DNA of 64,000 nucleotides from Bacillus sp. F19 (lineage in GTDB: Bacteria; Bacillota; Bacilli; Bacillales; Bacillaceae): positions 832,001 to 896,000 of the forward strand of contig CP085710.1 of the NCBI GenBank assembly GCA_023823795.1, written 5' to 3'. Numbering within the stretch: the first letter of the stretch is position 1; every line of letters starts with the position of its first letter. Made by a program: the position numbers and the translations under genes. The notes under the pieces were generated by a model, which ran no database searches, had not been told where the DNA came from, and saw only the letters and a list, made by a program, of their open reading frames with translations. Below are positions 33,842 to 48,549 of the stretch, in pieces.

Positions 33842-34897
33842 ATGGCTGGAAATACGTTCGGCGAGATGTTCAAAATCACGACCTTCGGAGAGTCGCATGG
33901 AGCGGCGGTCGGTGTCATCGTGGACGGTGTGACGCCTGAGGTCGATCTGAGCGAAGAATATATTCAGATTCAGATGAATCGCAGAAAGCCAGGCCAATCC
34001 ACCGTGACTTCACCGCGCAAAGAATACGATATCGTCCATATTTTATCAGGTGTATTTGAGGGGAAGACGACCGGTACGCCGCTTTTTGTGATCCTGCACA
34101 ATCATGACATGAACCCGGCAGCTTACAGCAGTATTCAACATGCTTTCCGCCCGGGCCATGCGGACTTTACGTATCTCAAGAAGTACGGAATTCGTGATCA
34201 CCGAGGGAGTGGGAGGGCATCCGGAAGGGAAACAGCAGGCCGAGTGGTAGGTGGGGCAGTGGCGCGTAAACTACTGGAACGAAGGGGTGTGCAGGTGCTG
34301 GCTTATACGAAAGAAATCGGGGGAATTGCATGCCGGTTGTTCGAAGAGCAAGCCATCGAGCAAAATGCCGTCCGTGCCTGCGACCCGACAGCAGCAACTG
34401 AAATGACGAATAAGATCGAGCAGTTGGCGGCGGTTGGCGACAGCTGCGGAGGCATCGTAGAATGCCGGATCCGCGGTGTCATCCCCGGCCTCGGTGAACC
34501 GGTATTCGATAAGCTGGATGCAGAGTTAGCCAAGGCAATGTTATCTATCGGCGCGGTGAAAGGCATAGAATTTGGTTCTGGCTTCTCCGCAGCTTCGATG
34601 CTTGGAAGCGAGCATAACGACGAGATGAGCTCCGCTGGTTTTTTGTCTAATCATTCGGGTGGGATTATCGGCGGAATAAGTACAGGACAAGAAATCATTT
34701 TCCGAGTTGTCGTAAAGCCGACGTCATCGATTTCGGTTCCGCAGAAGACGATCAACGTTAGAGGAGAAGAACAGGAGATTCGAACAGAAGGCAGGCATGA
34801 TCCGTGTATTTGCCCGAGAATCGTGCCGGTCATCGAGGCGATGGCATGCCTGGTATTGGAAGATCATTATAAACGACAAACCGCTATGCTGGGCTGA
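33842..34897 (+). CDS. aroC: Chorismate synthase (island copy)
   Basis: 351 residues. Begins AGNTFGEMFKITTFGESHG; the GESHG and 'GRASGRETAGRVVGGAVAR' motifs for FMN and EPSP binding are present, as is the C-terminal 'GRHDPCICPRIVPVIEAMA'. It converts EPSP to chorismate by anti-1,4-elimination. Shorter than housekeeping Bacillus copies (about 390), close to the proteobacterial length. ATG 33842 follows AAAGGAGG at ten bases; the earlier ATG at 33800 lacks an RBS. GC-rich codon use differs from hemZ. First gene of the aryl-acid island; the essential copy is presumably elsewhere. Confidence 0.94.
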   Translation: MAGNTFGEMFKITTFGESHGAAVGVIVDGVTPEVDLSEEYIQIQMNRRKPGQSTVTSPRKEYDIVHILSGVFEGKTTGTPLFVILHNHDMNPAAYSSIQHAFRPGHADFTYLKKYGIRDHRGSGRASGRETAGRVVGGAVARKLLERRGVQVLAYTKEIGGIACRLFEEQAIEQNAVRACDPTAATEMTNKIEQLAAVGDSCGGIVECRIRGVIPGLGEPVFDKLDAELAKAMLSIGAVKGIEFGSGFSAASMLGSEHNDEMSSAGFLSNHSGGIIGGISTGQEIIFRVVVKPTSSISVPQKTINVRGEEQEIRTEGRHDPCICPRIVPVIEAMACLVLEDHYKRQTAMLG

Positions 34898-34923
34898 AGA
34901 TTATTTAGAACGGAGAGTTATCC

Positions 34924-36687
34924 ATGTCTGACGACAAGCTGGAGAGTGAGAGGAAGTTAAAGGATTTACTGGTACGTTTAACGGATTCGCCATTTTACAA
35001 ACGAAAATTAGCGGATTATAATCTGATGAACATAGGGTTAAAGAAAATCTCTACATTGCCGATTACAGTAAAAGGCGAACTTCGAAAGGCAGGAGCATTT
35101 GACCATCTTGCTGTTGACCGTAAAGAAACGGTGCATTATTGCGAATCGTTCGGCACTACTGGAGAACCGACATCTGCTTGGTTTACGAAGGAGGATTTGG
35201 AAACCGGCATAAGACAAATAAAAGGATGCAGGGTACGGTTTGACAAAGAAGACATTGTACTGCTTCGATTTCCACATGGATTGACGGCTACCGCATTTCT
35301 AATGCAGCAAACCTGCCTTCAAGTGGGGGCGACGATCATCCCCGAGCACAGTACGGTTACACCTTATCCTAAGGTGCTTGATCTCATGAATCGACTGTAC
35401 GTCACGATCATTGCCGGATCTCCTCGAGAGATAGAATTGCTGGCCGAGACGACGCGCTTGCTAGGTTTAAACAGTAGCGAGCATTTCCCCTCTCTCCGGG
35501 CGATTATTGTTACCGGAGAAGTAGTGGGTGAACGTCGAAAGGAGCATTTGAAACGGAGGTGGGGTGTTCCAATAATTGATATATATAGTACTGCCGAGAC
35601 TGCTAATATTGCAGCTATGTGCGAGCATGGCGCGATGCATGTCTTAGAGCAGGACGTTGTGGTTGAAGCGCTGAAGGAAGATGGTTCCGGGCTTGCCAAA
35701 CCGGGGGAGAGGGGGCTCGCTGCGATTACGACATTGTCCCATCAAGCTTCACCGCTGCTGCGGTATCTCAACGAAGACGTGATCTCAGTCGAGCAGGGTT
35801 TATGCGCATGCGGCCAAACCGAAAGCAAGCTCGTCCATTATGGTCGACTGAAGAATAGAACTAGATTTGGGGAGATTGTGTTGGATGACAAGGATATTCA
35901 GGACGCCATATACTCGTTGGCTCCGGTACCCGATGCTTGGAAAGCTATGCAGCAAGAGAACGGATTTCATATGATTCTCGATTCGGAGCGATATGCCGAT
36001 TGGTCGTTAGAGGGAATTCAGGTTCAATTATCCGAAATGCTGAAGGTGACGGTAACCGCGGAGATCGGCTTCGGTACGCTGCTTAACCGGGATGAGCTCG
36101 CACGAAATGTTGCTTCAAAGAGACAGGTCTATATATGTAAGCGCGACAACGAAGATCCCGACACAAGCAGCTCCATTCTACTGCGAGACTTGCTTCGTCG
36201 CGGTTACAGCGAGTTTATGAGCTGCAAGTACGAGAAAGCACAGCAATTGTTCGAAGAGGCGGTAGCGCTGATTCCACACAGTGCAGAAGCGCATGCATGG
36301 CTGGCTGCGGTTTACGGTCGGCAGATAGATGCCGCTTGGAGTTTGACGGAGAAAATTGAACTTTTTCCGATGCTGGAAAACGAGATCACGACCGCCCTTG
36401 AAATCGACCCGACATTGCCACTCGCTAGGAGAATGAACGGATCCAAATTGTTAAATACGCCGTATATGCTAGGTGGAGACCCCGCCGCCGCAGCCAATGA
36501 ATTCCGTTATTGTATCGACCAGGGGATGAATGACGTTGAAATATGGGTATCCCTGGCTGAATGCTATATGAAAACGGATGATCCGGTTAAAGCGAAAGAA
36601 GTACTAAAAGTAGCATTGGCTCTAGAGCCAATGCATGAAAGGGCGGCACAATTATTGCAGCAAGCAAAAAAACGCAAGCATTTATGA
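34924..36687 (+). CDS. PaaK-type adenylating ligase fused to a TPR domain
   Basis: 587 residues. Residues 1-410 are an AMP-forming ligase of the phenylacetate-CoA ligase type: P-loop 'FGTTGEPTSAWF' (Glu replaces the usual Lys), 'IDIYSTAETANIAAMCEHG' (aromatic-binding and A5-like motif), 'SPLLRYLNEDVISVE' (A7-like) and CACG...LVHYGRLKNR. Residues from about 415 form TPR-like helices ('GYSEFMSCKYEKAQQLFEEA', 'HSAEAHAWLAAVYGRQ', 'LAECYMKTDDPVKAKEVLKV'). The N-terminal part is paralogous to the 42189 protein. It should activate a carboxylic acid as an acyl-adenylate and transfer it to CoA or another acceptor. The TPR probably docks a partner. 26 bp after aroC. Confidence 0.88.
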   Translation: MSDDKLESERKLKDLLVRLTDSPFYKRKLADYNLMNIGLKKISTLPITVKGELRKAGAFDHLAVDRKETVHYCESFGTTGEPTSAWFTKEDLETGIRQIKGCRVRFDKEDIVLLRFPHGLTATAFLMQQTCLQVGATIIPEHSTVTPYPKVLDLMNRLYVTIIAGSPREIELLAETTRLLGLNSSEHFPSLRAIIVTGEVVGERRKEHLKRRWGVPIIDIYSTAETANIAAMCEHGAMHVLEQDVVVEALKEDGSGLAKPGERGLAAITTLSHQASPLLRYLNEDVISVEQGLCACGQTESKLVHYGRLKNRTRFGEIVLDDKDIQDAIYSLAPVPDAWKAMQQENGFHMILDSERYADWSLEGIQVQLSEMLKVTVTAEIGFGTLLNRDELARNVASKRQVYICKRDNEDPDTSSSILLRDLLRRGYSEFMSCKYEKAQQLFEEAVALIPHSAEAHAWLAAVYGRQIDAAWSLTEKIELFPMLENEITTALEIDPTLPLARRMNGSKLLNTPYMLGGDPAAAANEFRYCIDQGMNDVEIWVSLAECYMKTDDPVKAKEVLKVALALEPMHERAAQLLQQAKKRKHL

Positions 36688-36728
36688 AAAATAGAGAATA
36701 AAAGGTAAGAAAGTATAAAGTTCCTGAA

Positions 36729-36761
36729 AATATCACAGACATAATAACTGTGATATTTTTT
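36729..36761 (+). terminator. Terminator after the ligase-TPR gene
   Basis: AATATCACAG (36729-36738) and CTGTGATATT (36748-36757) form the stem, followed by a T run. Confidence 0.8.
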
Positions 36762-36825
36762 GTTATAATAATATCAGAATTTATAAATGGGTGCCCCATT
36801 TTGGCTTTTGCGTTAAAAAAGGTGT

Positions 36826-37311
36826 ATGGAAACAAACATCTTGAGACGTATTTTTTTCGATCACCATCATCATTGGGAGGTGTTTATAAAAAAACATGAC
36901 CAAACGCCTCGTCCGATTGTGAGAAAAGAGATGGAAAAATTTCGAGACTGTGGGAATCCAAAGAATGGGTTTAAACTATTCGTGTGCGAAGGTTGTCATG
37001 ATCCGATGATTTGTCACAAGTGTTCGTGTTATTTTGAATACAAAGGAGAAGTCTGTCCTCAGGATGGCGAGTTAGTGAAAAAGGCAGTATGTGAAACAAG
37101 CCATCAACTATCATTGCTTGGCTTGTCATGAGGAAGAGGAAATTCCTTATGATGTCGTACGAGATTTTGACATCATGGATGAAGGAGATCCGACCGTCCC
37201 ACCACAATTTAGCTGTGAAAAATGTAGAGCAGAAATGTATCCATAATACTACAAAGGCATTCATGGCCAGGAATACAAACTATCGGACCCTCTCATCATA
37301 ACAAATGACCG
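36826..37311 (+). pseudogene. Internally deleted IS91-like transposase remnant
   Basis: The first 60 residues (ILRRIFFDHHHHWEVFIKKH, 'FRDCGNPKNGFKLFVCEGCH') match the N-terminal zinc-binding region of IS91-family transposases. They run directly into CHKCSCYFEYKGEVCPQDGE, which looks like the C-terminal zinc domain, with the catalytic middle missing. The frame then shifts near 37095 (YHCLACHEEEEIPYD, 'PPQFSCEKCRAEMYP'), meets a stop at 37243 and continues in frame as YYKGIHGQEYKLSDP. So it is a deletion derivative with at least one frameshift and one nonsense change. Family assignment is by pattern. Confidence 0.6.
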
Positions 37312-37317
37312 GGCTGG

Positions 37318-37557
37318 TTATGCCCGGTTTTTCTTAATACCCTCTAACCCATTCGTCATCATTTCTTGTCCAGCTGCTACGGCACCATTCCTCAAGGTAG
37401 TAAGGATTCGGGGAGACTGATTTACATCACTACCACTCACCTCAACATCCATTTCATTGATGAATCGTGTAGCACCGGTGATCAAAGCAGTTGTAATGAT
37501 AGGCTTGGATTGTTCGCTTATTTTCTTAACGATCTTCTTAAAAGCATCTTTTGACAT
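37318..37557 (-). CDS. Small helical protein A of the island, 79 residues
   Basis: Starts MSKDAFKKIVKKISEQSKP, amphipathic helix with a basic face, and ends NGAVAAGQEMMTNGLEGIKK. The C-terminal pattern (N/K)G(A/V)xxAG(Q/E)xM(M/V)xxG is shared with the 45115-45393 protein, so the two are probably paralogues. ATG 37557 follows AAGGAGG at eight bases; a GTG three codons earlier overlaps the RBS. No signal peptide. Its function is unknown; the twin occurrence suggests a small structural or carrier component. Confidence 0.7.
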   Translation of the reverse strand: MSKDAFKKIVKKISEQSKPIITTALITGATRFINEMDVEVSGSDVNQSPRILTTLRNGAVAAGQEMMTNGLEGIKKNRA

Positions 37558-37614
37558 GCGTGTCACCTCCTTTCAAAAGAAACTTTCCCTCCCTATGGCC
37601 TGTTGCAGCATGGA

Positions 37615-38340
37615 CTAGCGCCGTCCTTTCTTTTTGAGCCGTTTGCGGGGAGTTTCTTCTTTCTTTTGCTTCGCCCAGCTTAGGAGCTCGCCCCCGGCGG
37701 CACGAGCGGCCCTTCTTATCAAAATTGATGTGGGTTTCTCGGCGTTCGGTATTTGCTCAACAGCTGGTTTCCCTTCCAAAGACTTAAGCCTTAGCTTGAG
37801 GAGATGCAGAAAATCAGGATCCTGCGTTTCGTTCTTCACCCTTTTCCAGCATATAGTCGCAGCCTGATTTCGACCGATCCGGCAGTATACCTCGCCAAGT
37901 TCGTAGATAAGCTGCAAGTATTTTTCGGTCTCAAGGAAGCCTTCTTCATGCATTTCCCGATCGATGAGAAAGGTGTAATCTTCAATCACCGTTTGGGACC
38001 GGTGGAAATGCTTTTCAGGCAACATATATACGGTCTTGCCTCGCAGCAGTCGGATCTTGCCATCCTGAGGGGCGGCACTTACCGCTCCATCAAGAAGCTT
38101 CAGTCCTGCTTTCGACCACCTCAATTTATCCAACGGTTTTGTCTTATCCCGAGCGATTAGCATCATGGTGATGCCATGGTATGCATCCGCAAGCGGCTGG
38201 CCCGGATAGTCGGATCGCACCCGTTCCAACAACTGATGCATGTCTTGAACGGCCTTTTCATTGCCTTCTACGGCGTCCTTGTGTAGTGAAATAACCTGCT
38301 CAAGTAACATCTCGATATCCTTCTCGCTTACATTCACCAA
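37615..38340 (-). CDS. TPR-type helical protein 1 of the island
   Basis: 241 residues, entirely helical: LLERVRSDYPGQPLADAYHG, KLRWSKAGLKLLDGAVSAAP, IEDYTFLID, LIYELGEVYCRIGRNQAATI. These are TPR-like helix pairs. Clearly paralogous to the neighbour 38345-38896 (shared 'RLLRGKTVYMLPEKHFHRS' versus 'RLLRANVCLRLPESFFHCS'). A very basic C-terminal tail (KQKKEETPRKRLKKKGRR) is unusual. The gene is 4 bp from its neighbour in the same minus-strand operon with the DUF4915-like gene. Probably a scaffold. Confidence 0.8.
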   Translation of the reverse strand: MVNVSEKDIEMLLEQVISLHKDAVEGNEKAVQDMHQLLERVRSDYPGQPLADAYHGITMMLIARDKTKPLDKLRWSKAGLKLLDGAVSAAPQDGKIRLLRGKTVYMLPEKHFHRSQTVIEDYTFLIDREMHEEGFLETEKYLQLIYELGEVYCRIGRNQAATICWKRVKNETQDPDFLHLLKLRLKSLEGKPAVEQIPNAEKPTSILIRRAARAAGGELLSWAKQKKEETPRKRLKKKGRR

Positions 38341-38344
38341 TTGT

Positions 38345-38896
38345 CTATTCCTCCCCTGTAATTTTTTTCTGTTTCTTTTTCTTTGATGTCAACTGGGTTA
38401 ATTGTTGCAATACTTCATTCGCTTCGCTCAATTTTCCTACATTTTGGTAAGCATCACTTAGATCCTCCATAATTCCCCTCACTTGCTTATTAGTAAGGTA
38501 ACCGGGATCTTCTTTATAACGATCCAGCAGGAAGGATAAGTCTTCGATTGCCGTCTGTGAGCAATGGAAGAAGGACTCTGGCAGCCGCAGACATACATTT
38601 GCACGCAACAACCGAATTTCCTTCTGGTTCGGGTCCATGGATATTGCTTGATTCAATGAATCTAGTCCTTCTTGCGCTTTATCCGCTTTTTCCAGTGGCT
38701 GAACAGCATCTCGTCCTAATAGCGCAAGTGTGCTGCCGTAATAGGCTTCAATAAGAGCATTGTCGGGCTCGGTATTGCGAAGCTTTAAGAAAATCTCATA
38801 GGCGATTTTCACCGCCTTTTTATCTCCGTCTACGCCTTTCATAAGAACCCTTTTTCCTTCCTCTAATTGCTTCATATGGGTGTCGTTTTTTTTCAT
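38345..38896 (-). CDS. TPR-type helical protein 2 of the island
   Basis: 183 residues, helical, paralogous to the 37615 protein but lacking its long C-terminus; ends in a Lys-rich tail (SKKKKQKKITGEE). Start at ATG 38896 after GGGGGG; an upstream in-frame start would overlap the preceding gene and add a non-homologous extension. It follows the DUF4915-like gene by one base, so the three genes are a tight operon (38898-39815, 38345-38896, 37615-38340). Confidence 0.8.
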   Translation of the reverse strand: MKKNDTHMKQLEEGKRVLMKGVDGDKKAVKIAYEIFLKLRNTEPDNALIEAYYGSTLALLGRDAVQPLEKADKAQEGLDSLNQAISMDPNQKEIRLLRANVCLRLPESFFHCSQTAIEDLSFLLDRYKEDPGYLTNKQVRGIMEDLSDAYQNVGKLSEANEVLQQLTQLTSKKKKQKKITGEE

Positions 38897-38897
38897 T

Positions 38898-39815
38898 TCA
38901 ATTCCCCCCTTCCAACGAAAAATCCGGATCAAGAACAAGAATCTGATACACCTGTTGCGCTGGCAATGATACAAATCGAGAGATTCTAAATTCGGGATTG
39001 TAGACATAGATTCCGCCATCCAAGCAGCAATTCGAGAACTCGTGAGGGATTCGTAAAACATGCCTCATCCTGCTCTGTCCGATAAAGATCGTATCGTCCG
39101 TTATTGCAAGTCCGCGTGTAAAACCTGGTAGTTGAATCGGCGCCTCGTTCCCGATTAGGACACTGAACGACATAGAGTCGCAATAAGATAGTTTGTTTTG
39201 ATGCACCATTACCGAATGAGGCATATACAAACTCTTTACGACGACATGATTCGCCGGGTCTATGCCGAGGTGTTGACCGGGATGAAAATCGGTCAAATCA
39301 ATCGCGACAATCCCACCGTTTTTATGAATCGGGTCCAGATACCATTTACCATAGGGAGAAAACATAGAAACATATAAAGTACGACTATCCAACCAAATGT
39401 CATTAATATGATGAACGTCTTTGTCCGCAGAATTGAATCGAATCTCCCCTATTCGGGTGAACGTATCGGTCTCATAGCATCCAATCGCATTAATCGCCGT
39501 TTCCACAACCAAAACAACATTATCATTAAACTTAACGATGTCGTGAAAATCGAGTTTCAAGTGTTTCGTTTTCTGGATGACTTGGAACCTCTCGTCCATA
39601 GTAATGATCTGATTATCGTCGGATGTTACGAATAATCGATCCTTAACCAATGTCATTCCCGAACAACTGCCGGTATAAAGCTTCTCCAAAGCGTTATTTT
39701 TAAAGTCTAGCAAAAATAGTCCACCCTGATCTGAACCACTTGCTGGACAGCTTATTAGAAGACGTGTATTGAGATATTCAAAATCTTGATCATTCTCCAA
39801 TCCGAATAACAACAC
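38898..39815 (-). CDS. DUF4915-like beta-propeller protein
   Basis: 305 residues. Begins MLLFGLENDQDFEYL then 'RLLISCPASGSDQGGLFLLD', followed by repeated strand patterns (LFVTSDDNQIITMDERF, 'HHINDIWLDSRTLYVSMFS', 'ITDDTIFIGQSRMRHVLRIP') suggesting a beta propeller such as that of DUF4915/TIGR03032 proteins, often found with TPR and glycan or peptide-modifying genes. No signal peptide. GTG 39815 follows AAGGAGGGG. The 5' end and upstream region are tandemly duplicated (39772-40121). Function unknown. Confidence 0.75.
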   Translation of the reverse strand: MLLFGLENDQDFEYLNTRLLISCPASGSDQGGLFLLDFKNNALEKLYTGSCSGMTLVKDRLFVTSDDNQIITMDERFQVIQKTKHLKLDFHDIVKFNDNVVLVVETAINAIGCYETDTFTRIGEIRFNSADKDVHHINDIWLDSRTLYVSMFSPYGKWYLDPIHKNGGIVAIDLTDFHPGQHLGIDPANHVVVKSLYMPHSVMVHQNKLSYCDSMSFSVLIGNEAPIQLPGFTRGLAITDDTIFIGQSRMRHVLRIPHEFSNCCLDGGIYVYNPEFRISRFVSLPAQQVYQILVLDPDFSLEGGN

Positions 39816-40121
39816 GGATCAATCCCCTCCTTAAAATAAACGATTTGTGTTAGTTACGATATGTATGGTTTATATGAACGGTTTGGATGAAATACTCATT
39901 TTTACAAAATGTGTTTTTGTCCGAATCAAGTCTAACTTTCGTATTTAGATATTCAAAATCTTGATCATTCTCCAATCCGAATAACAACACGGATCAATCC
40001 CCTCCTTAAAATAAACGAATTGTGCTAGTTACGATATGTATGGTTTATATAAACGGTTTGGATAAAATACTCATTTTTATAAAATGTGTTTTTGTCCGAA
40101 TCAAGTCTGACTTTCCTTGCA
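39772..40121. repeat. Tandem duplication of 175 bp around the DUF4915 start
   Basis: Two head-to-tail copies (39772-39946 and 39947-40121) differing at about ten positions. Each contains the first 15 or so codons of the DUF4915-like gene, its RBS and its whole upstream region. The outer copy can make a 41-residue truncated peptide starting at GTG 39990. It therefore provides two promoter copies for the minus-strand operon. Confidence 0.88.
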
Positions 40122-40152
40122 TTTCATAAAGAGAAAGGAAGGAGTGGAGAAC

Positions 40153-40305
40153 ATGAATGATGGAAAGCTAAATAAAGAAGAGAAAAAAGCAGAAAAAACA
40201 AAAAAAAGAGAAGAGAAGTTGGCAAAAAAAATGGAAGAGAAGCAGGTTAAAGATAAACGGAAATTAGAAAAGAAAGAAGCAAAAAAGATTGAAGCAAGAA
40301 ATTAA
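40153..40305 (+). CDS. Lys/Glu-rich coiled-coil protein, 50 residues
   Basis: Composed almost wholly of Lys, Glu, Ala and Arg (MNDGKLNKEEKKAEKTKKRE ... KKEAKKIEARN), a single charged helix. ATG 40153 follows GAAAGGAAGGAGTGGAG. Composition recalls the larger repeat protein at 46306. Read divergently from the DUF4915-like operon. Confidence 0.6.
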   Translation: MNDGKLNKEEKKAEKTKKREEKLAKKMEEKQVKDKRKLEKKEAKKIEARN

Positions 40306-40309
40306 TAGA

Positions 40310-40545
40310 GATGGATCAAAACTGTCCAAGGAAACAATTCGCAGTATATCGGAGGTTGCAAAGCTGTTTATAGATGCGGGAATGGTTACGCCTTTTCGCA
40401 CGGACCGTGCCCTCACTCGTTTTTTACTTCTTGAAGGTGATTTTATCAAAATTTATGTGACGTGTTCGCTCGGCGAATGCGAAAGACGCGAACCTAAAGG
40501 TCTTTATAAAAAGGTCACAGGATCTGCGCAACGAAATCTCCTACC
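40310..40545 (+). pseudogene. cysC (adenylylsulfate kinase) C-terminal fragment
   Basis: The frame 40310 onward reads 'RSISEVAKLFIDAGM', PFRTDRALTRFLLLEGDF, 'IYVTCSLGECERREPKGLYKK', matching the central and C-terminal part of APS kinase (compare IRRIGEVAKLF, PFREDRD, PKGLYKKA in CysC). The P-loop half is absent, so it cannot be active. A remnant of transfer or deletion beside the island genes. Confidence 0.85.
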
Positions 40546-40811
40546 GTTTGCTTATCGGTTTCTATAACGGTCTCTTGTGAACTAGGATTCATAAGGATAG
40601 GATATACCGGTAAATTCCAAGGATTTACTGCTTTACATTTCTATAACTATATTTTCCAAGAGACGCAATGATAGTTATCCGTTGGGACAGCCACAATCGA
40701 TATTAGGCTTCAGGTGGTTGTAGGATGTTGTCTATCTTGGGCCATTGGTACATGCAGTTTAGGCCGCGTAGATTCTAAGAGTATTAAGAATACATGGAAT
40801 GGAGGATTTAG
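40546..40811 (+). other. Gene-free stretch before the 447-residue ligase
   Basis: No ORF with an RBS. An inverted repeat (GGTCTCTTG near 40570 and CAAGAGACG near 40657) could fold a loop of about 80 nt. RBS GGAATGGAGG lies at the right end. Confidence 0.35.
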
Positions 40812-42155
40812 ATGAAGTTTCAAACTCATAAGATGACAGTTTCCATTGACGAACATTCATCCCATCTAGAACAATTCAAGGAATTTTATAAGCAATTGGA
40901 TGATGAAGGAAAAACTATTGAAATACTTCCTCATCAAAAAACAGAAGATTATCAGTTAAAGGCTGTTAACGCCACTCTTGCTCATGTGTGGAACCGAAAT
41001 GAATACTACCGTTCGACATTGGAAGAGGCAGGCTTCACAGAGCCTAAAATCGATAGTCTAGAACAATTAGCTTCCGTACCGATGCTGAAGAAAGATGTCA
41101 TTAGAGGTGATAAACAAAAGATATTATGCGTCGATCCGAAAGAAATAGGCCAAGTTCACCTTACTAGCGGCACATCGGGTAAGCCAATATATACCTCTTA
41201 CACATTAGCTGATCAATATGTATACGATCTGCTGCCGAAGTATTTGGAGCTGTTTAAGGAGACGAACGATGATGTCGCGGCAATTGCGCTGCCTTATGAA
41301 TTTGCGCTGCCCGGCCTTGGATTTCAGCGATTATTTCAATTTGCGTTTGGTACGGCGGTTCTATCGCTTGGCAAAGGCGGTTACATGGCTCCTATCGATA
41401 AGTCGTTGGAATTAATGAAGGAATTTCAAGCCACGGTCCTTACTACAACCCCTTCTTACGCAGCACTCCTAGCAGAAGAAAGCGAGAAGTTCGGTATAAA
41501 AATTGGTGAAGATATTCGCCTGAAGAAAATTTGGCTTACCGGCGAAGGATGCTCCTTCACCTTCCGCGAACGGCTGGAAAAGTGGTGGGGATGCGAAGTC
41601 TCGTTCTTCTACGGATCAACCGAGTGCGGAGTTATCGGTGTAGAATGCAGTAAGCATAAAGGGTATCACGTCATGGAAGGGCATGTGAAAGTCGAAATCG
41701 TTGATCCGGTTTCAGAGGAAGTGCTTCCGTACGGTCGAACGGGAGAAATCGTTGTGACAACGCTGCTGCGTGAAGGAATGCCGATGGTACGCTACCGGAC
41801 CGGGGATCTTGGCAACTTGCAAAAATCCAAATGCGATTGCGGAATCACATTGGACGTTATGCAGCTAAGAGGCCGAATGGAGCACATGCTGCGCGTGGGC
41901 ACTGAAGACTATTCTCCATTCTTGATCGAGCACTTTCTCATGGAGATTCCCGAAGTAGGTTTATGGTATCACCTAAAGCTGGATCAAGGAGTGCTCACAA
42001 TCGAAGCCGAGAAGTTTCGGACGAAGCTAAGTGACGAGCAATTGGCGGCGAAAATTCAAAAGCATATGGCTGATCGGATTGGGATACATTGCGAAGTCGT
42101 AATCAGACACGATATCCCTCGTACGTACGGCAAAGCGACCAGAGTATTCAATTAG
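40812..42155 (+). CDS. PaaK-type aryl-CoA ligase (447 residues)
   Basis: A full-length phenylacetate-CoA ligase family member. P-loop 'HLTSGTSGKPIYTSY' (near 120), 'FFYGSTECGVIGVECSKHKG', 'MVRYRTGDLGNLQKSKCDCG' (Asp binding the ribose), 'MQLRGRMEHMLRVGTEDYSP' and a C-terminal 'RTYGKATRVFN' with the expected catalytic Lys. A C-x-C pair may bind zinc. It should form an aryl-adenylate and then a CoA thioester. The enzymes around it suggest 4-hydroxybenzoate as substrate. ATG 40812 follows GGAATGGAGG. It starts the plus-strand run 40812-44992. Confidence 0.9.
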   Translation: MKFQTHKMTVSIDEHSSHLEQFKEFYKQLDDEGKTIEILPHQKTEDYQLKAVNATLAHVWNRNEYYRSTLEEAGFTEPKIDSLEQLASVPMLKKDVIRGDKQKILCVDPKEIGQVHLTSGTSGKPIYTSYTLADQYVYDLLPKYLELFKETNDDVAAIALPYEFALPGLGFQRLFQFAFGTAVLSLGKGGYMAPIDKSLELMKEFQATVLTTTPSYAALLAEESEKFGIKIGEDIRLKKIWLTGEGCSFTFRERLEKWWGCEVSFFYGSTECGVIGVECSKHKGYHVMEGHVKVEIVDPVSEEVLPYGRTGEIVVTTLLREGMPMVRYRTGDLGNLQKSKCDCGITLDVMQLRGRMEHMLRVGTEDYSPFLIEHFLMEIPEVGLWYHLKLDQGVLTIEAEKFRTKLSDEQLAAKIQKHMADRIGIHCEVVIRHDIPRTYGKATRVFN

Positions 42156-42188: not shown

Positions 42189-43424
42189 ATGAGCGACATC
42201 GATAGAGAGAGGGCGAAAAAGTTTCAGGAGATGTATGTGCGTATTCTAAAATCCCCTCTGTACAAGAGGAAATTATCGGACTATGCTTTAAACGGCATTG
42301 GATTGAGTCACATCCAGACACTTCCGTTAACGACAAAGGAAGATCTGCGGAAAGCGGGCATCTTCGGTCACCTCGCCGTCGATATGAAGGAAATCGCTCA
42401 ATATTACGAATCGACCGGCACGACCGGGGAGCCCTCTGCTGCCTGGTTTACGCAAAAAGATATGATAATTGGCGGAAGACAATTGAAGGAATGCGGTGTG
42501 CGTTTGACGTCTGAAGATCTGGTGCTGATCCGTTTTCCTTACGCAATGGCGCTGCCTGCATTCTTAATGCAGCATGCAGCTTGGCAGACAGGAGCTGGGG
42601 TCGTTCCCGCAAGCGGACGTACTGTAGTTACCCCTTACCCCAGAGTGTTAAGCCTGATGAAACAGCTTTCTGTCACGGTGTTGGCGGGACTCCCGCGTGA
42701 GATGGAACTGCTGGCCGAAGCGGCTCGTCTCGGCGGTTCTGAGCCGAGCAAGGACTTTCCGGCTCTGCGCGCCATATGCGTCGCAGGTGAATTAATGAGC
42801 GACAAGCGCAGGGAGCATATAGAAAAGCTGTGGAGCGTGCCTGTATTTAATATGTACGGTTCGACGGAAACTGCCAATATCGCTACAATGTGCGAGTATG
42901 GCACAATGCATATCGTAGAACAAGATTTTTTCGTAGAAGTCCTGAATGAGGACGGTTCAAGCCCCGTCGCTTATGGAGAAAGAGGGTTTGCGGCGATCAC
43001 GACGCTTTCCCATCAGGGTTCTCCTCTGCTGCGATACTTTAATGAAGACATTATCTCTGTAGAGCCCTGTTTATGCGATTGCGGCCGAGCTGGAGCCAAG
43101 CTGGTTCACTACGGCAGAAGCAAGGATCGAATCCGTTTCGGAAACACCGTCCTAGACGCAATGGATATTCAGGAAGCCGTATATTCGTTGTCTCCTGCTC
43201 CGGATGCTTGGAAGGTGCTAGAGCAGGAAGAGGGGTTGCACATTTTACTAGATTCGCATGATTCCGGGAAATGGTCCGAGGAAAATATCCGTTCTCGATT
43301 ATCTTCTCGACTTCAAGTGCCGGTCACCGTTGAAATCACTGCGTTGCTCGATCGTGTCGATCTCATGAGTAACGTTCCATCGATAAAGCCTGTATATATC
43401 AAAAAGCGAAGTAACGGCGCATAG
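42189..43424 (+). CDS. PaaK-type adenylating ligase (411 residues), paralogue of the fusion gene
   Basis: Very similar along its length to the first 410 residues of the 34924 protein (for example 'SPFYKRKL'/'SPLYKRKL', 'GTTGEP', 'ETANIA.MCE.G.MH', 'LVHYGR'), but with no TPR extension. P-loop 'STGTTGEPSAAWF', 'FNMYGSTETANIATMCEYG', 'SPLLRYFNEDIISVE'. ATG 42189 follows GGAGAGAGGAGG. Relative to the 447-residue enzyme this pair forms a distinct subgroup, so they may act on a different step or substrate. Confidence 0.88.
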   Translation: MSDIDRERAKKFQEMYVRILKSPLYKRKLSDYALNGIGLSHIQTLPLTTKEDLRKAGIFGHLAVDMKEIAQYYESTGTTGEPSAAWFTQKDMIIGGRQLKECGVRLTSEDLVLIRFPYAMALPAFLMQHAAWQTGAGVVPASGRTVVTPYPRVLSLMKQLSVTVLAGLPREMELLAEAARLGGSEPSKDFPALRAICVAGELMSDKRREHIEKLWSVPVFNMYGSTETANIATMCEYGTMHIVEQDFFVEVLNEDGSSPVAYGERGFAAITTLSHQGSPLLRYFNEDIISVEPCLCDCGRAGAKLVHYGRSKDRIRFGNTVLDAMDIQEAVYSLSPAPDAWKVLEQEEGLHILLDSHDSGKWSEENIRSRLSSRLQVPVTVEITALLDRVDLMSNVPSIKPVYIKKRSNGA

Positions 43425-43510
43425 AAATAGATCCATTGAATTCGGGTAGCATAACGATAATTGGTTAGGAAGATTCCCATTAATTAGGCTGAAAGAAAGG
43501 ATTGTTTATC

Positions 43511-44338
43511 ATGAGCGATAAATTGCAGCAAGAGAAACCACCGCTTCTCGTAAGCCGCCACCATAAAAGCGAGGATACGATTATTAATATTAAGCAAGCG
43601 GTGATCGGTGGTTCTTCGCATACGCTGATCGCAGGTCCCTGCTCGATCGAATCGAGAGATCAGCTCGTAACGGTTGCTTCCGCTTTAAAGAAAGCTGGCA
43701 TAACGGTCTTACGCGGCGGGGCGTTCAAACCGAGAACTTCTCCTTACGATTTTCAAGGGCTCGGTGAAGAGGGATTAAAAATTATGAAGGATGTGGCGGA
43801 TGAAATCGGATTGGTGACCATCAGCGAAATTATGAGTCCCACTCAAATCGATACAGCCGCCCGTTATATCGATATCTTTCAAATAGGCGCGCGCAACATG
43901 CAGAACTTCGACCTGCTGAAAGCCGTCGGGCAAACGAAGAAGCCCATACTACTGAAACGCGGCCTTTCCGCTACTTTGGAGGAGTTTATGCTCGCAGCAG
44001 AATATATTCTGCATCAAGGGAATGACCAGGTCATGTTAATGGAACGTGGTATACGCACTTTCGAGAAAGCGACTCGTAATACGCTTGATATTTCCGCTGT
44101 TCCAATCTTAAAGCAGGAGACCCATCTTCCAGTGCTAGTGGATGTCACTCATTCTACCGGGCGGAAAGATATTCTGCTGCCTTGTGCAAAGGCGGCGCTT
44201 GCCGCTGGCGCCGACGGGATTATGGTTGAGGTGCACCCGAATCCCCCGGCCGCTCTCTCCGACGCGAAGCAGCAAGTCAACATTGATGAGTTTCATGCGT
44301 TCTGGAAGGGGCTCTGCGATTCCGGTTTGTACCATTAA
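43511..44338 (+). CDS. aroF: DAHP synthase without regulatory domain
   Basis: 275 residues, type I-beta 3-deoxy-D-arabino-heptulosonate 7-phosphate synthase. Motifs: '[10 protein letters not shown]', '[19 protein letters not shown]', '[12 protein letters not shown]', '[14 protein letters not shown]', 'ERGIRTFE', '[11 protein letters not shown]', '[17 protein letters not shown]' (metal and phosphate contacts). It makes the first intermediate of the shikimate pathway from PEP and erythrose 4-phosphate. The B. subtilis enzyme carries an N-terminal chorismate mutase domain for feedback control; none is present here, so this copy is probably feedback-insensitive. ATG 43511 follows AAAGGA at nine bases. 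Confidence 0.94.
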
Positions 44339-44395
44339 CAATTTTCCATAACTGGCGAAGAGAGTCGCACACAATTGTCTAATGGAGGTGAGAGT

Positions 44396-44992
44396 ATGAT
44401 AGACTCACAGTTTGAGCGAAAGGCGTCGGATGTTTTACACGGTTTGATATTCGATTTTCTATTAGTAACGGATGGACGGACAACGGATTTGCTAGAAATG
44501 CTGTTGAACGAGAAACTTATTGTACATGTGATCCGGCAAGAACAAATAGGTGAAGAGGATGCAAACCTGATGGGTGAATCCTCGGGAGGTCCGTACTATA
44601 TTCGAGAATCGGTTTTGATCGGCGAGAAAAGTCGATTTGTCGTGTCACACAACATTGCGCTTGTATATTCTAAGCATGTACCTCCCGCTTTGTTCGAGAA
44701 AATTGCGCATCAACAAGAGGGAATTGGAAAAGCGATCAGCTCACTCGGAATGCGTACATTCCGAAAGGTGGCCGACTCCGGATTCATGAACGAAGCGGAA
44801 ACGGTCGATCTTTTCGGGCGGCCGATCAAGATCCACTTTCCTAATCTGCAAAATAAGGTGCCTTACAAAAGATACTTCATTTATTTCGGACGTAAACCGG
44901 GGATTCAGATGCTCGAATATTTCCATCCGAGCATCATCGGACACCGTTTACAGCAAGGGATGACGAAAGAGCAATCGAACAAAGAAGAATAA
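44396..44992 (+). CDS. Chorismate pyruvate-lyase-like protein (UbiC/DUF98 type)
   Basis: 198 residues. Pattern of the bacterial chorismate lyase-like family: 'GLIFDFLLVTDGRTTDLLEM', 'GPYYIRESVLIGEKSRFVVS', HVPPALFEKI, 'GIGKAISSLGMRTFRKVAD' and 'HPSIIGHRL' near the end. The reaction in characterised members is chorismate to 4-hydroxybenzoate plus pyruvate (some members give 3-hydroxybenzoate). ATG 44396 follows GGAGGTGA. It lies 57 bp after the DAHP synthase gene, and with chorismate synthase forms a supply line to an aryl acid. Product isomer cannot be told from sequence. Confidence 0.85.
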   Translation: MIDSQFERKASDVLHGLIFDFLLVTDGRTTDLLEMLLNEKLIVHVIRQEQIGEEDANLMGESSGGPYYIRESVLIGEKSRFVVSHNIALVYSKHVPPALFEKIAHQQEGIGKAISSLGMRTFRKVADSGFMNEAETVDLFGRPIKIHFPNLQNKVPYKRYFIYFGRKPGIQMLEYFHPSIIGHRLQQGMTKEQSNKEE

Positions 44993-45017
44993 GGTTCTGA
45001 AAGAAGAGTAACTGACC

Positions 45018-45072
45018 ACTGGCTGGCTTTACAGGGAGAAACGCATCCCTTAGAGTCAGCCAGTGCTTTTGA
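45018..45072 (+). terminator. Terminator of the 40812-44992 operon
   Basis: CACTGGCTG (45018-45026) pairs with CAGCCAGTG (45058-45066), inner GGGA/TCCC, then CTTTTG. Confidence 0.65.
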
Positions 45073-45114
45073 ATATGCAGGACTCACCAGTGAATTATAT
45101 GCTGACAGGCTTCC

Positions 45115-45393
45115 TTATTTTTTTCTCGATTTTGCTTTCATTTGTTCGAAGATATCGACTCCGGAGGCGACCATTTGTTCACCAGCATATTGTACACCCT
45201 TCTTTACGGCTTCGAATAATTTTCCTGCAACGATATCGACGGGTTGATCACGATCTTCTAAAGCTTCAATGATTTCTTGCTCGGCTACGTCTGCTCCGTT
45301 TTTAACCGCCGTCGTGTAGTTAGCGGTAAAGTATCTAAATCCCCGATTGATTTCGCGAAAAATTCTCGAAAACTCTTGATTTTCCCTCGACAA
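45115..45393 (-). CDS. Small helical protein B of the island, 92 residues
   Basis: Starts at TTG 45393, eight bases after AAGGAGG (same spacing as in the 37318-37557 gene, whose leader AAGGAGGTGA is identical). The protein ends 'KKGVQYAGEQMVASGVDIFEQ' KMAKS..., matching the paralogue's NGAVAAGQEMMTNG pattern. The N-terminal part is rich in Arg, Phe and Asn. No signal peptide. Function unknown. Confidence 0.7.
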   Translation of the reverse strand: MSRENQEFSRIFREINRGFRYFTANYTTAVKNGADVAEQEIIEALEDRDQPVDIVAGKLFEAVKKGVQYAGEQMVASGVDIFEQMKAKSRKK

Positions 45394-45429
45394 CTGTTTC
45401 ACCTCCTTACGATACTACATTTAGCCATT

Positions 45430-45830
45430 CTCGGCTCTTTCCTCGTTCAACATACCACTGCAATACTCCGCTTCCTGAAAACGATCGACCCGTTGATGCG
45501 CTTCACCAAGTTCGTAGATCATTCTATAATAAGTGTCTTTATCAAGACTGCCCGGTTGACGTAGTTCCCAATCAGGTAAGATGGATATAGTCTTCAATGG
45601 CTGTTACCACAGGATACAAGGATCGATCGGGTAACAGGGAAGATGCGGAATTGCGGAGCATACGGACCGCAGTATCCTAGGGTGAATAAGCGACAGCTTC
45701 ACCCGAGAAGACTCAGCCCTCGTCTCGCCAGCTCTCTCTTTTCTATCGGATTCGAGGCATCCCTTGCCATTAAAACCGCAACGTTGCCGTGGTATGCTTT
45801 CGTTACCCGAGCATCCCGGATGATCCAGAC
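45430..45830 (-). pseudogene. Decayed third TPR paralogue
   Basis: Minus-strand fragments in several frames read 'LDKDTYYRMIYELGEAHQR' and VDRFQEAEYC, RSLYPVVTAIEDYIHL, and LRNSASSLLP. These align with 'KYLQLIYELGEVYCRIGRN' and FHRSQTVIEDYTFLID of the 37615 protein in the same order. Stops and frameshifts interrupt all frames. So the island once had a third TPR gene next to the second small protein. Confidence 0.7.
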
Positions 45831-45922
45831 GCAATTGTGCGAATATGCGGTTTGCTTTCCAAATGGAGTCTACATTTCCTGCTGCCCCTTCATCATGAAA
45901 CAAAAATCGCTTCAGCCAGCCT

Positions 45923-46135
45923 TTACTCGTCGGATTCGGCTTTTAACGCGATCGCAACCTCGTCATCCTGCATCGGAACGGAATCAATCGTTCCCGTTTG
46001 TTTCCTGCCGTCCCTAGATGTAAGCAATGCAACGATAACGCCCGCCACTAGTACGAAAACAAACACGCCGCATAAACTCATACCTAGAATGAATAAGATT
46101 CTATCCCTAAAAAAATCCATGTTCCTTGTTTTCAT
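45923..46135 (-). CDS. Small single-pass membrane protein, 70 residues
   Basis: Begins MKTRNMDFFRDRILFILGMS with a membrane helix at about 13-40, then a hydrophilic acidic tail (TIDSVPMQDDEVAIALKAES). RBS weak. Faces divergently away from the repeat protein gene. Could be a membrane anchor for the neighbours; unrecognised. Confidence 0.5.
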   Translation of the reverse strand: MKTRNMDFFRDRILFILGMSLCGVFVFVLVAGVIVALLTSRDGRKQTGTIDSVPMQDDEVAIALKAESDE

Positions 46136-46305
46136 TCTGCTTTCAGTCCTTCCGTATAAGAATAGTTCAGTATATGATTAAATATCCTAGATCATATAGG
46201 TATTGGACTATTATTGGGTGAATTCCGCTTCAGCCCAATCCAGATTCGCTAACTCACATAAACATATACAGAGTCATTAAACATATAAAAGGAGGTTCCC
46301 AATCA

Positions 46306-47406
46306 ATGGATCATATCCAGAGGGAAACTGATTCTAATCCGGTCGCAGATGAAGAAGCACTTTCGACAGTTTCGAAACAGGAGGACGATTTGGAGTGGAA
46401 GCGGTTTATCCAAAAAGAGTTAGGGAAACTAGAAAATCAGGAAATGGATGAAGGGAAAGAAGACTCAGAGAAACTAGACTCAGAGAAGACCTCGCCGGCT
46501 GAGACGGAGTTTACTCTCAGTTCCCTTATCGAGCAGATACCTATAGAACAATTGGTCGGTTCGGCAATACGAATTTTTAATAAGAAGACAGAACCGGAAA
46601 AAACAGACGACAAACCAAAAAAGGTATCTAAAATAGAAAAGGAAAAAGATAAAAAGATAAAAAAGGAGAAACAAGAAAAAAAAACGAAAGAACGAAATCA
46701 ATTGACAGAGGGAAAACGACGAATAGAAGAAAGTAAAAATAACTACCATGAAGAGAAGAAAAAGAAAAAAGAACAAAAGGAAGAAGATAAAAAGATAAAA
46801 AAGGAGAAACAAGAAAAAGAAACGAAAGAACGAAATCAATTGACAGAGGAAAAACGACAAATAGAAGAAAGTAAAAATAACTACCATGAAGAGAAGAAAA
46901 AGATAAAAGAACAAAAGGAAGAAGATAAAAAGATAAAAAAGGAGAAACAAGAAAAAGAAACGAAAGAACGAAATCAATTGACAGAGGAAAAACGACAAAT
47001 AAAAGAAAGTAAAAATAACTACCATGAAGAGAAGAAAAAGATAAAAGAACAAAAGGAAGAAGATAAAAAGATAAAAAAGGAGAAACAAGAAAAAGAAACG
47101 AAAGAACGAAATCAATTGACAGAGGAAAAACGACAAATAGAAGAAAGTAAAAATAACTACCATGAAGAGAAGAAAAAGATAAAAGAACAAAAGGAAGAAG
47201 ATAAAAAGATAAAAAAGGAGAAACAAGAAAAAGAAACGAAAGAACGAAATCAATTGACAGAGGAAAAACGACAAATAGAAGAAAGTAAAAATAACTACCA
47301 TGAAGAGAAGAAAAAGATAAAAGAATCTAAAAAGCATGATTATGATAAATATGAAGATGATCAGGAAGAAGAAACAGTCTTAATCATCCGTTCTAGAAGG
47401 AGATAA
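46306..47406 (+). CDS. Lys/Glu-rich repeat protein with five 46-residue repeats
   Basis: 366 residues. Residues 1-110 form an acidic N-terminal domain containing 'TLSSLIEQIPIEQLVGSAIR'. From about residue 114 come five units of 46 residues (consensus starts DKKIKKEKQEKETKERNQLT, then EEKRQIEESKNNYHEEKKKI), predicted as one long charged helix. A tail of 24 residues (KHDYDKYEDDQEEETVLI...) closes it. ATG 46306 follows AAAAGGAGG. The first unit differs at a few positions; the rest are nearly identical in DNA, a sign of recent expansion. The Tyr/Asn cluster per repeat is regular. A structural fibre or acylation acceptor is conceivable but unproven. Confidence 0.85.
   Translation: MDHIQRETDSNPVADEEALSTVSKQEDDLEWKRFIQKELGKLENQEMDEGKEDSEKLDSEKTSPAETEFTLSSLIEQIPIEQLVGSAIRIFNKKTEPEKTDDKPKKVSKIEKEKDKKIKKEKQEKKTKERNQLTEGKRRIEESKNNYHEEKKKKKEQKEEDKKIKKEKQEKETKERNQLTEEKRQIEESKNNYHEEKKKIKEQKEEDKKIKKEKQEKETKERNQLTEEKRQIKESKNNYHEEKKKIKEQKEEDKKIKKEKQEKETKERNQLTEEKRQIEESKNNYHEEKKKIKEQKEEDKKIKKEKQEKETKERNQLTEEKRQIEESKNNYHEEKKKIKESKKHDYDKYEDDQEEETVLIIRSRRR
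46645..47334 (+). repeat. Five tandem 138-bp repeats within the repeat protein gene
   Basis: Units start at 46645, 46783, 46921, 47059 and 47197. Units 2-5 are almost identical at the DNA level; unit 1 has drifted. In frame throughout (46 codons each). Confidence 0.95.
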
Positions 47407-47418
47407 TAGATTTGTTCA

Positions 47419-47634
47419 ATGAATAAAAATAGACCCCATTATCAGAGGTCTCAAGTGGGCTATACATCATGGGATAACAGAGAAGTAGATGAATTCAGAC
47501 CGTTTACAGAAGATGCTCTTAAACGATTTCAAGCCGATCAAAAGATATATGGTAACAATGAACCGACTGGTGTGTATGATTACGTGACAGCTCGTGCTTT
47601 TGCTTTGGTGTTGTCCGTTTACCATAAGCATTAG
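47419..47634 (+). CDS. Peptidoglycan-binding-like small protein, 71 residues
   Basis: The second half, 'FTEDALKRFQADQKIYG' followed by TGVYDYVTARAF, fits the C-terminal half of the PG_binding_1 fold (A-(V/L)-x-x-FQ...TGxYDxxT). It lacks the first repeat and has no signal peptide. The RBS is about 16 bases upstream, so the start is uncertain. It lies 12 bp after the repeat protein gene and may be co-transcribed. Confidence 0.55.
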   Translation: MNKNRPHYQRSQVGYTSWDNREVDEFRPFTEDALKRFQADQKIYGNNEPTGVYDYVTARAFALVLSVYHKH

Positions 47635-47650
47635 ATTGAATCTAGATAAG

Positions 47651-47686
47651 AAAAAAGCCCTTCCTATTGAAGGGACTTATTTTAAC
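47651..47686 (+). terminator. Terminator after the 71-residue gene
   Basis: GCCCTTC, loop CTATT, GAAGGG, then TTATTTT; preceded by an A run. Confidence 0.55.
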
Positions 47687-47739
47687 GGGTTATTTTCAGA
47701 ATAGATCGATAACGACTAAGAGAAGGAGCATCACGACTG

Positions 47740-48549
47740 ATGAAGGAGACTCTTTTATTTCATTCCACTGTTTTACGAAATATAGCGTCATTGTTCTTAT
47801 TTGGGTCACTTATTATCATTTTGCAAACAAATCACTACCTGCTGATGAGTGTTTGGGGAATATGCGCATGGTTATTCTTCATCAATAAATCAATGAGATT
47901 TTTTATCGTGACAACGATGGCTTTCGGAATCGGATTCTTTCTATATGGCTATGTGAACTCGCATTTGATCACCGACCTGAATCCTGAGGAAATGCTCATC
48001 ATACTCAATAGGCTGTCGTTGATTTTTCTCATTCTTCCGTTAACAGCCATATCGCTTATTTACAAACTTCCTTTCATGCGCTATTGGCAGAAGCCGCAAT
48101 GGGGTGAGTTGGTTCGCGTACCGTTTATTTTGTCAGGCTGCCATCATACGAAGGTAAGTGTATTTCTCTCCATTGCGATGATTATAAATCTCATTGCTTT
48201 TATTCCATTTATTGTGAATAATGGTTGGGCATACATCCAGGAAATTTGGCGGTTCATGCTTATTTTTTCAATCATTAACTCCGTGCTTGAAGAAATCATT
48301 TGGAGAGGCATGCTTCTAAGTCGTTTTTCTGAGCACTTTGGCAATCGATGGGCGGTAATGATAACGAGCATAGGCTTTGGGCTGCAGCATTATTCCCTTG
48401 GATTCTCTTGGGGTGGTTGCCTTGTATTTACTTTGGGAGGGCTGTTTTTCGGGGCAATTACAGTCAAATCAAAAAGTATCGTTCCTGCAGTAATATGGCA
48501 TATGTCAATCAATGCCTTAATGGTTCTTAGCGGAATGATATTAAAATAA
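47740..48549 (+). CDS. CPBP-family intramembrane protease
   Basis: 269 residues, multi-pass membrane protein with the CPBP (Abi) motifs: EExxWR as 'VLEEIIWRGMLLSRF' (motif 1), 'SIGFGLQHYSLGFSWGG' (motif 2, His) and 'VIWHMSINALMVLSG' (motif 3). These residues form the predicted glutamate/histidine active site of CAAX-like proteases. ATG 47740 follows GAAGGAGCATCACG. Last clear gene of the island; could process a peptide or lipoprotein of the cluster, or be unrelated. In other bacteria such proteases act in bacteriocin immunity. Confidence 0.87.
   Translation: MKETLLFHSTVLRNIASLFLFGSLIIILQTNHYLLMSVWGICAWLFFINKSMRFFIVTTMAFGIGFFLYGYVNSHLITDLNPEEMLIILNRLSLIFLILPLTAISLIYKLPFMRYWQKPQWGELVRVPFILSGCHHTKVSVFLSIAMIINLIAFIPFIVNNGWAYIQEIWRFMLIFSIINSVLEEIIWRGMLLSRFSEHFGNRWAVMITSIGFGLQHYSLGFSWGGCLVFTLGGLFFGAITVKSKSIVPAVIWHMSINALMVLSGMILK

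Follow-up and report, generated by a model that had tools for sequence, protein, structure and literature searches.

We propose that a gene island of Bacillus sp. F19 is probably, although by no means certainly, an acquired and sporulation-expressed variant of the closoxazole (Clx)-type aryl-acid ligase cluster, which would make 4-hydroxybenzoyl esters or conjugates for the spore. The island occupies 33.8–48.5 kb of the window, that is, the whole stretch of 64,000 nucleotides analyzed here (contig CP085710.1, positions 832,001 to 896,000, forward strand). It is flanked by hemZ (31820–33382) and, from 49023, by a β-oxidation operon of fadD, acyl-CoA dehydrogenase, and 3-hydroxyacyl-CoA dehydrogenase genes (the last two named by eye from sequence), as an initial annotation of this DNA had stated. 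All genes named in that annotation are present according to Pfam and NCBIfam matches and the list of open reading frames (ORFs). From the gene content, its conservation and mobility, the sequence motifs, and the active-site residues, we infer the substrate, product, and location discussed below. The building block was apparently swapped from 3-amino-4-hydroxybenzoate (3,4-AHBA) to 4-hydroxybenzoate, with the cyclizing step absent.

The closoxazole clusters are clxA–E of Clostridium cavendishii and pfxA–E of Pyxidicoccus fallax, and closoxazoles are small-molecule benzoxazole natural products (PMC12118335). As in these clusters, a ClxA-type AMP ligase and a second ligase of the island would join aryl acids directly, with neither a nonribosomal peptide synthetase (NRPS) nor a polyketide synthase (PKS), and in other Bacillota the TPR protein family of the island adjoins Clx-type genes. 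In contrast, the island lacks the AHBA genes (ClxB/ClxE) and the amidohydrolase (ClxD), and it has genes for 3-deoxy-D-arabino-heptulosonate 7-phosphate (DAHP) synthase, chorismate synthase, a putative chorismate lyase, a DUF4915 protein, a Lys/Glu-rich (KE) protein, and the small proteins smA and smB, together with sporulation motifs. The island proteins gave no Pfam match to an NRPS or PKS module or to a carrier protein. The initial annotation had concluded from this that the island is not a usual aryl-capped metabolite cluster; the absence stands, but the island is related to closoxazole clusters, which need neither system.

Nine clusters were compared: the window island, seven loci (L007–L013), and that of genome G059 (genomes and loci are designated by G and L numbers). 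All were picked via the lyase gene, whose presence in them is therefore by construction; aroC, the PaaK-TPR fusion, and the CPBP protease were judged in the fetched stretches, with flanks of up to 10 kb for L007–L013. PaaK2, PaaK3, DAHP synthase, and the lyase occur in the same order in all nine, and the lyases are 69–95% identical to the window copy. A KE-type lysine-rich protein, a TPR protein, and smA (truncated in one case) are also present in every cluster, smB in eight, CPBP in four, and the PaaK-TPR fusion in two; in L010 and G059, the TPR part of this fusion has a relative that stands separately. The neighborhood search suggested in the initial annotation thus yielded eight other genomes with the core cluster. 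The lyase was found in 3 of 299 genomes of the order and 2 of 398 of the phylum, own genome counted, and in seven named records (Bacillus sp. PAMC26568, Peribacillus huizhouensis, Metabacillus arenae, Gracilibacillus sp. YIM 98692, Paenibacillus psychroresistens, Gracilibacillus massiliensis, and G. kekensis). These host genera form spores.

PaaK3 is predicted to be a ClxA-type ligase that couples aryl acids directly. Its nearest solved protein is 9s3l (228.9 bits), followed by AjiA1 and the 6siw group. We take 9s3l to be ClxA, though the entry names the molecule phenylacetate-CoA ligase, because ten ClxA residues named in PMC12519233 agree with it in letter and number. ClxA joins aryl acids via the adenylate, accepts an aryl amine or a phenol, and yields 4-hydroxybenzoate dimers and trimers, and its homologue PfxC forms the 4-hydroxybenzoate dimer ester (PMC12519233, PMC12118335). 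The equivalents of ClxA Y219, T222, N226, D281, and H301 are conserved in PaaK3 of all nine clusters, nucleotide contacts among them. N226 contacts the para-hydroxyl group in ClxA (PMC12519233); it is no mark of 4-hydroxybenzoate alone, because ClxA itself carries it, and Asn is found there in 2 of 11 ClxA-type sequences taken from TPR loci that also carry Clx genes (L045, L047, L048, and eight of L105–L120). The best NCBIfam model for both PaaK3 (185 bits) and PaaK-TPR (142 bits) is BagE/FevW of bagremycin and ferroverdin synthesis, at scores far under its cut-off of 800; the models of that system also include a DAHP synthase (BagF/FevY). PaaK3 further shares its family with the nataxazole and AJI9561 ligases NatL2 and AjiA1, in which a domain-swapped C-terminal extension is described (PMC12519233). 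The island differs from the nataxazole system, where NatL2 uses 3-hydroxyanthranilate and an amidohydrolase follows (PMC12118335).

PaaK2 shares 36–40% identity with the second ligases found in the Clx-type sets of G266, G779, and G233, a comparison made with these sets rather than with ClxC itself. In both PaaK-TPR copies seen, T222 is replaced by Ala, and Arg occupies the presumed K393 place with a Lys one residue earlier. Because two ClxA phosphate contacts are lost, PaaK-TPR may be catalytically impaired, possibly a pseudo-ligase retained for its TPR part. The initial annotation had the aryl acid loaded onto coenzyme A (CoA) or a protein partner. Its ligases are there, but they are best likened to ClxA and the second Clx ligase, and CoA loading is therefore not the default; ClxA-like direct coupling is closer. 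Its interpretation as a whole is thus upheld in part, with the enzymology changed.

Both the chorismate synthase and the DAHP synthase of the island are second copies in this genome (the other chorismate synthase gene is at C1:3363676), which supports the extra chorismate flux already suggested in the initial annotation. The DAHP synthase of Bacillus has a chorismate mutase part. In L009, the tail of aroC also precedes PaaK-TPR. For the lyase, a fold search supported the DUF98/chorismate lyase fold (AF1396/UbiC type). It shares the fold and likely the reaction with UbiC and the DUF98 members Rv2949c and AF1396, and it differs from them in being only 14–21% identical to the solved members and in sharing an operon with the DAHP synthase and ligase genes. 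R77 and E181 are invariant in nine sequences (alignment A1, which holds the distant G040 homologue and not the G059 lyase), and R77 meets the WLRE motif of UbiC in a weak alignment; we take R76 and E155 of UbiC to be its catalytic Arg and Glu. The single lyase sequence gave no match in the PDB, and a PF01947 profile search of the own genome at E 0.001 gave none either. Based on fold and context, we infer that this DUF98-type lyase cuts chorismate to 4-hydroxybenzoate.

ClxB and ClxE, the 3,4-AHBA synthesis enzymes, were unmatched in the island and the eight other clusters (tblastn, E 1e-15, GriH/GriI-like queries from L045), and GriH/GriI-type AHBA genes were also not among the family-model matches of the island proteins. 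The cyclizing amidohydrolase ClxD was unmatched in the same nine clusters and found in L045, L047, L048, and L076. At this threshold, the nine clusters hold just the ClxA and ClxC types. Since ClxD and the AHBA genes are missing, the product would be linear and not a benzoxazole.

The TPR family of the island extends to clusters of the full Clx type. The TPR1 profile matched 6 of 397 order genomes: the own genome, G059, G266, G779, G233, and G104. In G266, G779, and G233, the TPR gene stands beside a full ClxA–E-type set, and G104 has a lone TPR gene. The amidohydrolases of the three sets match PF04909; in G266, an ADH-synthase relative reaches 303 bits (cut-off 299), and both G266 and G779 have AHBA-synthase relatives that belong to the DHQS-II family and also match BagC/FevH at 228–230 bits, below its cut-off. 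Of 398 phylum genomes, 32 encode the TPR protein (E 1e-10), and loci were fetched from 20 of the 31 other genomes with matches. At least two Clx-type genes lie beside the TPR gene in 13 of these loci and none in seven. All five types are present in six (L106, L108, L109, L111, L113, and L120), and some others stop at contig ends. Among the loci without Clx genes, L117–L119 and L121–L123 have TPR scores below 89 bits, and L116 reaches 105.4 bits, more than L120 (102.3). The TPR protein and a ClxA-type ligase thus accompany each other frequently but not invariably. Of 397 order genomes, 13 encode a strong ClxA-type ligase (at least 232 bits, the next score being 135): two of the 4-hydroxybenzoate type, three full Clx sets with TPR, one hybrid (G040), and seven two-gene cassettes. 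In these seven genomes (L069–L075, e.g., L073:8391-10692), the ClxA-like ligase is paired directly with a protein bearing a methyl-accepting chemotaxis protein signaling domain (Pfam, seven of seven). The lyase match in G040 is a distant homologue in a different gene setting, a hybrid region (L006:9996-17617, L076:195-13291) with ClxA–E-type genes, TPR proteins, and, named by eye, ABC transporter, ketosynthase-like, acyl carrier protein-like, and dehydratase-like genes. Genes resembling, again by eye, a branched-chain amino acid type ABC importer adjoin the Clx/TPR cluster in L105, L107, L110, and L112.

Sporulation motifs were searched with patterns based on the sigma-K and sigma-E consensus sequences. 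The strict sigma-K pattern ([AC]AC, 16–17 bases, CATANNNTA) was found at 17 sites in 15 stretches totaling 331,207 bases. Its position upstream of the TPR operon is the same in seven of the nine clusters (the window, L007, L008, L009, L012, L013, and G059), and the window has it twice because of a 175-bp duplication. When ORFs of at least 100 amino acids were counted with the motif from 200 bases upstream to 30 inside, 6 of 291 had it, all from this gene family: four genes that open a TPR operon, the G059 KE gene, and, in L044, the lone TPR gene. This count leaves out the TPR operons of L007 and L008, where DUF4915 is broken, and the G059 operon is split over two loci in it. A sigma-E-like pattern precedes TM70 in the window, L007, L008, L009, L010, L012, and L013, namely in all clusters with a matched TM70 ORF. 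This pattern is less specific; three of the eight ORFs with it among the 291 are TM70-type, and one is a G059 TPR gene related to PaaK-TPR. In all these counts, the four closest clusters are not independent, and L012 and L013 are also close. A sigma-K promoter at a conserved place, and hence SigK-dependent expression, is predicted from the motif, and the spore link guessed at in the initial annotation gains support from both motif types. Two lone TPR genes without Clx genes, L044:4402-5098 and L116:9450-11374, have the strict sigma-K motif upstream. From the distribution of the motif, this wiring is therefore a feature of the 4-hydroxybenzoate type and some lone TPR genes.

Here, we propose the following pathway. 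The extra DAHP synthase and chorismate synthase would raise chorismate, from which the lyase would supply 4-hydroxybenzoate. PaaK3 would adenylate 4-hydroxybenzoate and couple it to a phenol or an amine, giving 4-hydroxybenzoyl esters (depsides) or amides, and PaaK2 may attach a further unit to the free carboxyl group or prime the chain. The TPR proteins may scaffold the ligases, with the second ClxA-type ligase, fused to a TPR of another type, as a possibly degenerate partner. Since the structural genes carry motifs of sigma-K or sigma-E type, the mother cell would be the site of the pathway, and the product would end up in or on the spore. We tentatively consider a more specific form, in which the mother cell polymerizes 4-hydroxybenzoate or loads it onto lysine-rich repeats and so modifies the spore coat or crust with an aromatic polyester or phenol–protein layer; this is possible, though not the likelier outcome.

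Several observations weigh against the proposal of a spore-directed pathway. The strict sigma-K motif is missing in L010 and L011, and the sigma-E-like motif in G059. The motifs lie upstream of the TPR, TM70/smB, and (in G059) KE genes and not of the biosynthetic operon from PaaK2 to the lyase, before which no sporulation motif was found by eye. G266, G779, and G233, which have full Clx sets, show no strict motif before the TPR operon, although a looser one occurs in L047; across the 20 other Bacillota loci, there is no enrichment, with the motif at 1 of 76 Clx/TPR genes (the lone TPR gene of L116) versus 3 of 247 others. In the fetched stretches, aroC is present in just two of the nine clusters. 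The lyase scores 18.3 bits with PF01947, under the Pfam cut-off of 22, so that the lyase named in the initial annotation holds by fold and not by family score; its alignment with Escherichia coli UbiC by hhalign is weak (3% probability), and UTRA regulators share the fold at the same Z score as UbiC. The acceptor-site residues of ClxA are mostly not conserved in PaaK3, where S118 is Ala in eight of nine clusters and K140 is Gly in all. Product, expression, and enzyme activity are all predicted from the genes.

The product might instead be a free, secreted 4-hydroxybenzoyl depside or amide (an antibiotic, chelator, or signal) made late in growth, with the TPR and lysine-rich proteins serving assembly or self-protection and the spore not being the target. 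The small-molecule nature of closoxazoles agrees with this, as do the Clx clusters of other Bacillota that lack the sigma-K signal and the CPBP protease of four clusters, a type known from bacteriocin immunity. It is nevertheless rather unlikely, considering that no exporter or regulator is found among the window genes with counterparts in other clusters and that lysine-rich proteins accompany all nine clusters and the TPR-operon sigma-K motif seven. A special case of the spore-directed pathway is that the ligases acylate lysines of KE or coat proteins with 4-hydroxybenzoyl, giving a cross-linkable, phenol-rich scaffold. Lys makes up 14.5–26.4% of the KE proteins, and 30-residue stretches with at least one-third Lys occur in 11 of 135 cluster ORFs versus 3 of 199 flanking ORFs (the latter drawn from 13 stretches, of which three contain full Clx sets). 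ClxA takes an aryl amine or a phenol as acceptor, and the change to Ala of its acceptor-side K140, the position that is Gly here, broadened acceptor use (PMC12519233). Against this, the portions of PMC12519233 and PMC12118335 consulted report no protein acceptor for a ClxA-type enzyme, and the KE repeat sequences vary between clusters, with conservation confined to the N-terminal part; KE366 itself repeats a 46-residue unit five times with 98% match. Lysine attachment is attractive, yet we regard it, too, as rather unlikely.

It is improbable that the ligases are ordinary aryl-CoA ligases and that the cluster supplies 4-hydroxybenzoyl-CoA to metabolism, such as the adjoining β-oxidation operon. 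They do belong to PaaK-type families, PaaK2 retains the PaaK C-terminal domain, and the operon adjoins the cluster in L007 as well as in the window. BagE/FevW gives PaaK3 and PaaK-TPR higher scores than PaaK models do, however, and among solved proteins, PaaK3 matches ClxA, AjiA1, and the 6siw group better than PaaK; the operon is also present in relatives without the island, and hemZ and fadD were unmatched in the fetched flanks of L008–L013. The DUF98-like protein could also be a ligand-binding, regulator-like protein and no lyase, the aryl acid then being another chorismate or shikimate product. The UTRA similarity and the Pfam score just mentioned fit this very improbable alternative, and the chorismate lyase fold match stands on the other side.

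The island is horizontally acquired accessory DNA, as the initial annotation had assumed. In G082 and G715, of the same genus, hemZ is followed directly by the fadD operon; the flank homology ends at window position 33,429 and restarts at 48,887, with ~740 and ~1,350 bases of other sequence between the flanks. Two more genomes of the genus have hemZ, with fadD unmatched within the 10 kb fetched. The island genes gave no match in these four 10-kb stretches (E 1e-5), and this, together with the empty site, shows that the island was acquired. Its G+C content per 2 kb is 42–50% versus 38–45% outside, except for the stretch of the Lys/Glu-rich gene (34.5%). L007 lies at the same hemZ–fadD site. A phage origin was rejected, as the lyase was unmatched in 50,697 phage records and had no confirmed match in viral contigs. 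A plasmid origin was rejected as well; all 292 plasmid records matching PaaK3 were below 60% identity, and the top-ranked (37.7%) is a gene of an Aneurinibacillus megaplasmid whose neighbors are by eye not cluster genes. A ClxA-like ligase gene with mostly hypothetical neighbors was noted on a 722-kb Aneurinibacillus plasmid (L018:12061-13239).

The features of the island are listed in Table 1. smA and smB, called paralogous in the initial annotation, are weak paralogues, as smA of five other loci also matches the window smB (E 7e-4 to 8e-8). DUF4915 seems dispensable because it is broken in L007 and L008 and unmatched in L012 and L013. Its model (pLDDT 69.5) matched generic β-propellers only (best TM score 0.5–0.6, ~12% identity), and no function was assigned. 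An adenosine 5′-phosphosulfate (APS) kinase, a family named by eye, is full-length only in the Paenibacillus cluster (L011:5638-6243) and left as remnants in the window, L007, L008, and L009, a hint of an ancestral sulfation step. An aryl sulfotransferase role, an idea raised by this kinase, was unsupported among the best 50 structural matches of DUF4915. A cobalamin riboswitch (window 820–1001, minus strand, 118.5 bits) has no relation to the island.

Table 1. Features of the island in window coordinates
Feature	Position	Strand	Basis or remark
Accessory chorismate synthase (AroC)	33842..34897	+	PF01264, 451 bits
PaaK-TPR, ClxA-like ligase fused to C-terminal TPR	34924..36687	+	Family matches, residue alignment
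IS91-type transposase zinc-domain fragment	36826..37131	+	PF14319, 30.2 bits; not in initial annotation
smA, small basic protein	37318..37566	-	Homologues in 8 other clusters, one truncated
TPR1, TPR protein of Clx-associated family	37615..38340	-	Profile matches
TPR2, TPR protein	about 38345..38896	-	Second match G000:C1:870375-870884; ORF-list start 39061 overlaps DUF4915
DUF4915/TIGR03032-like protein, predicted β-propeller	38898..39815	-	47.4 bits, cut-off 35
Strict sigma-K motif AACC-N16-CATATCGTA before DUF4915-TPR operon	39855..39883	-	Pattern search
Second copy of strict sigma-K motif, inside the 175-bp tandem duplication	40030..40058	-	Pattern search
175-bp tandem duplication copying DUF4915 start and sigma-K motif	39766..40115		Not in initial annotation
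Short Lys/Glu-rich ORF	40117..40305	+	ORF list
APS kinase (CysC) remnant	40289..40567	+	Family named by eye; not in initial annotation
PaaK2, relative of second ligase of Clx-type clusters; keeps PaaK C-terminal domain	40812..42155	+	
PaaK3, ClxA-type ligase (predicted)	42189..43424	+	Best solved relative 9s3l
DAHP synthase, catalytic domain only	43502..44338	+	290 bits
Putative chorismate lyase, DUF98/Rv2949c fold	44375..44992	+	PF01947, 18.3 bits; fold search
smB, small basic protein	45115..45402	-	Homologues in clusters
TPR gene debris	45436..45806	-	Weak matches G000:C1:877436-877806; not in initial annotation
TM70, 70-amino-acid protein, one hydrophobic segment by eye	45923..46135	-	ORF list
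Sigma-E-like motif ATA-N18-CATATACT before TM70	46169..46197	-	Pattern search
KE366, Lys/Glu-rich repeat protein, 24.9% Lys, conserved N-terminal part	46306..47406	+	
CPBP/Rce1-type membrane protease	47740..48549	+	In 4 of 9 clusters

Among the matches listed in a search of open-licence literature, no spore-linked 4-hydroxybenzoate, AHBA, benzoxazole, PaaK, or DUF4915 system was found by title or start of abstract. According to the proposal, spores should carry a definite class of product, 4-hydroxybenzoyl esters or amides, within them or on their surface, and the TPR family emerges as one that commonly accompanies closoxazole-type clusters in Bacillota. If the proposal is true, the carrier-free joining of aryl acids, which was described recently, would be tied to sporulation, and Clx-type clusters with TPR scaffolds would form a wider class of nonribosomal, carrier-free aryl-oligomer machines in Bacillota. 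The spore layer would be made independently of a template and may function against UV light or oxidants or in cross-linking; should spores possess it, this would be a novel type of spore material.

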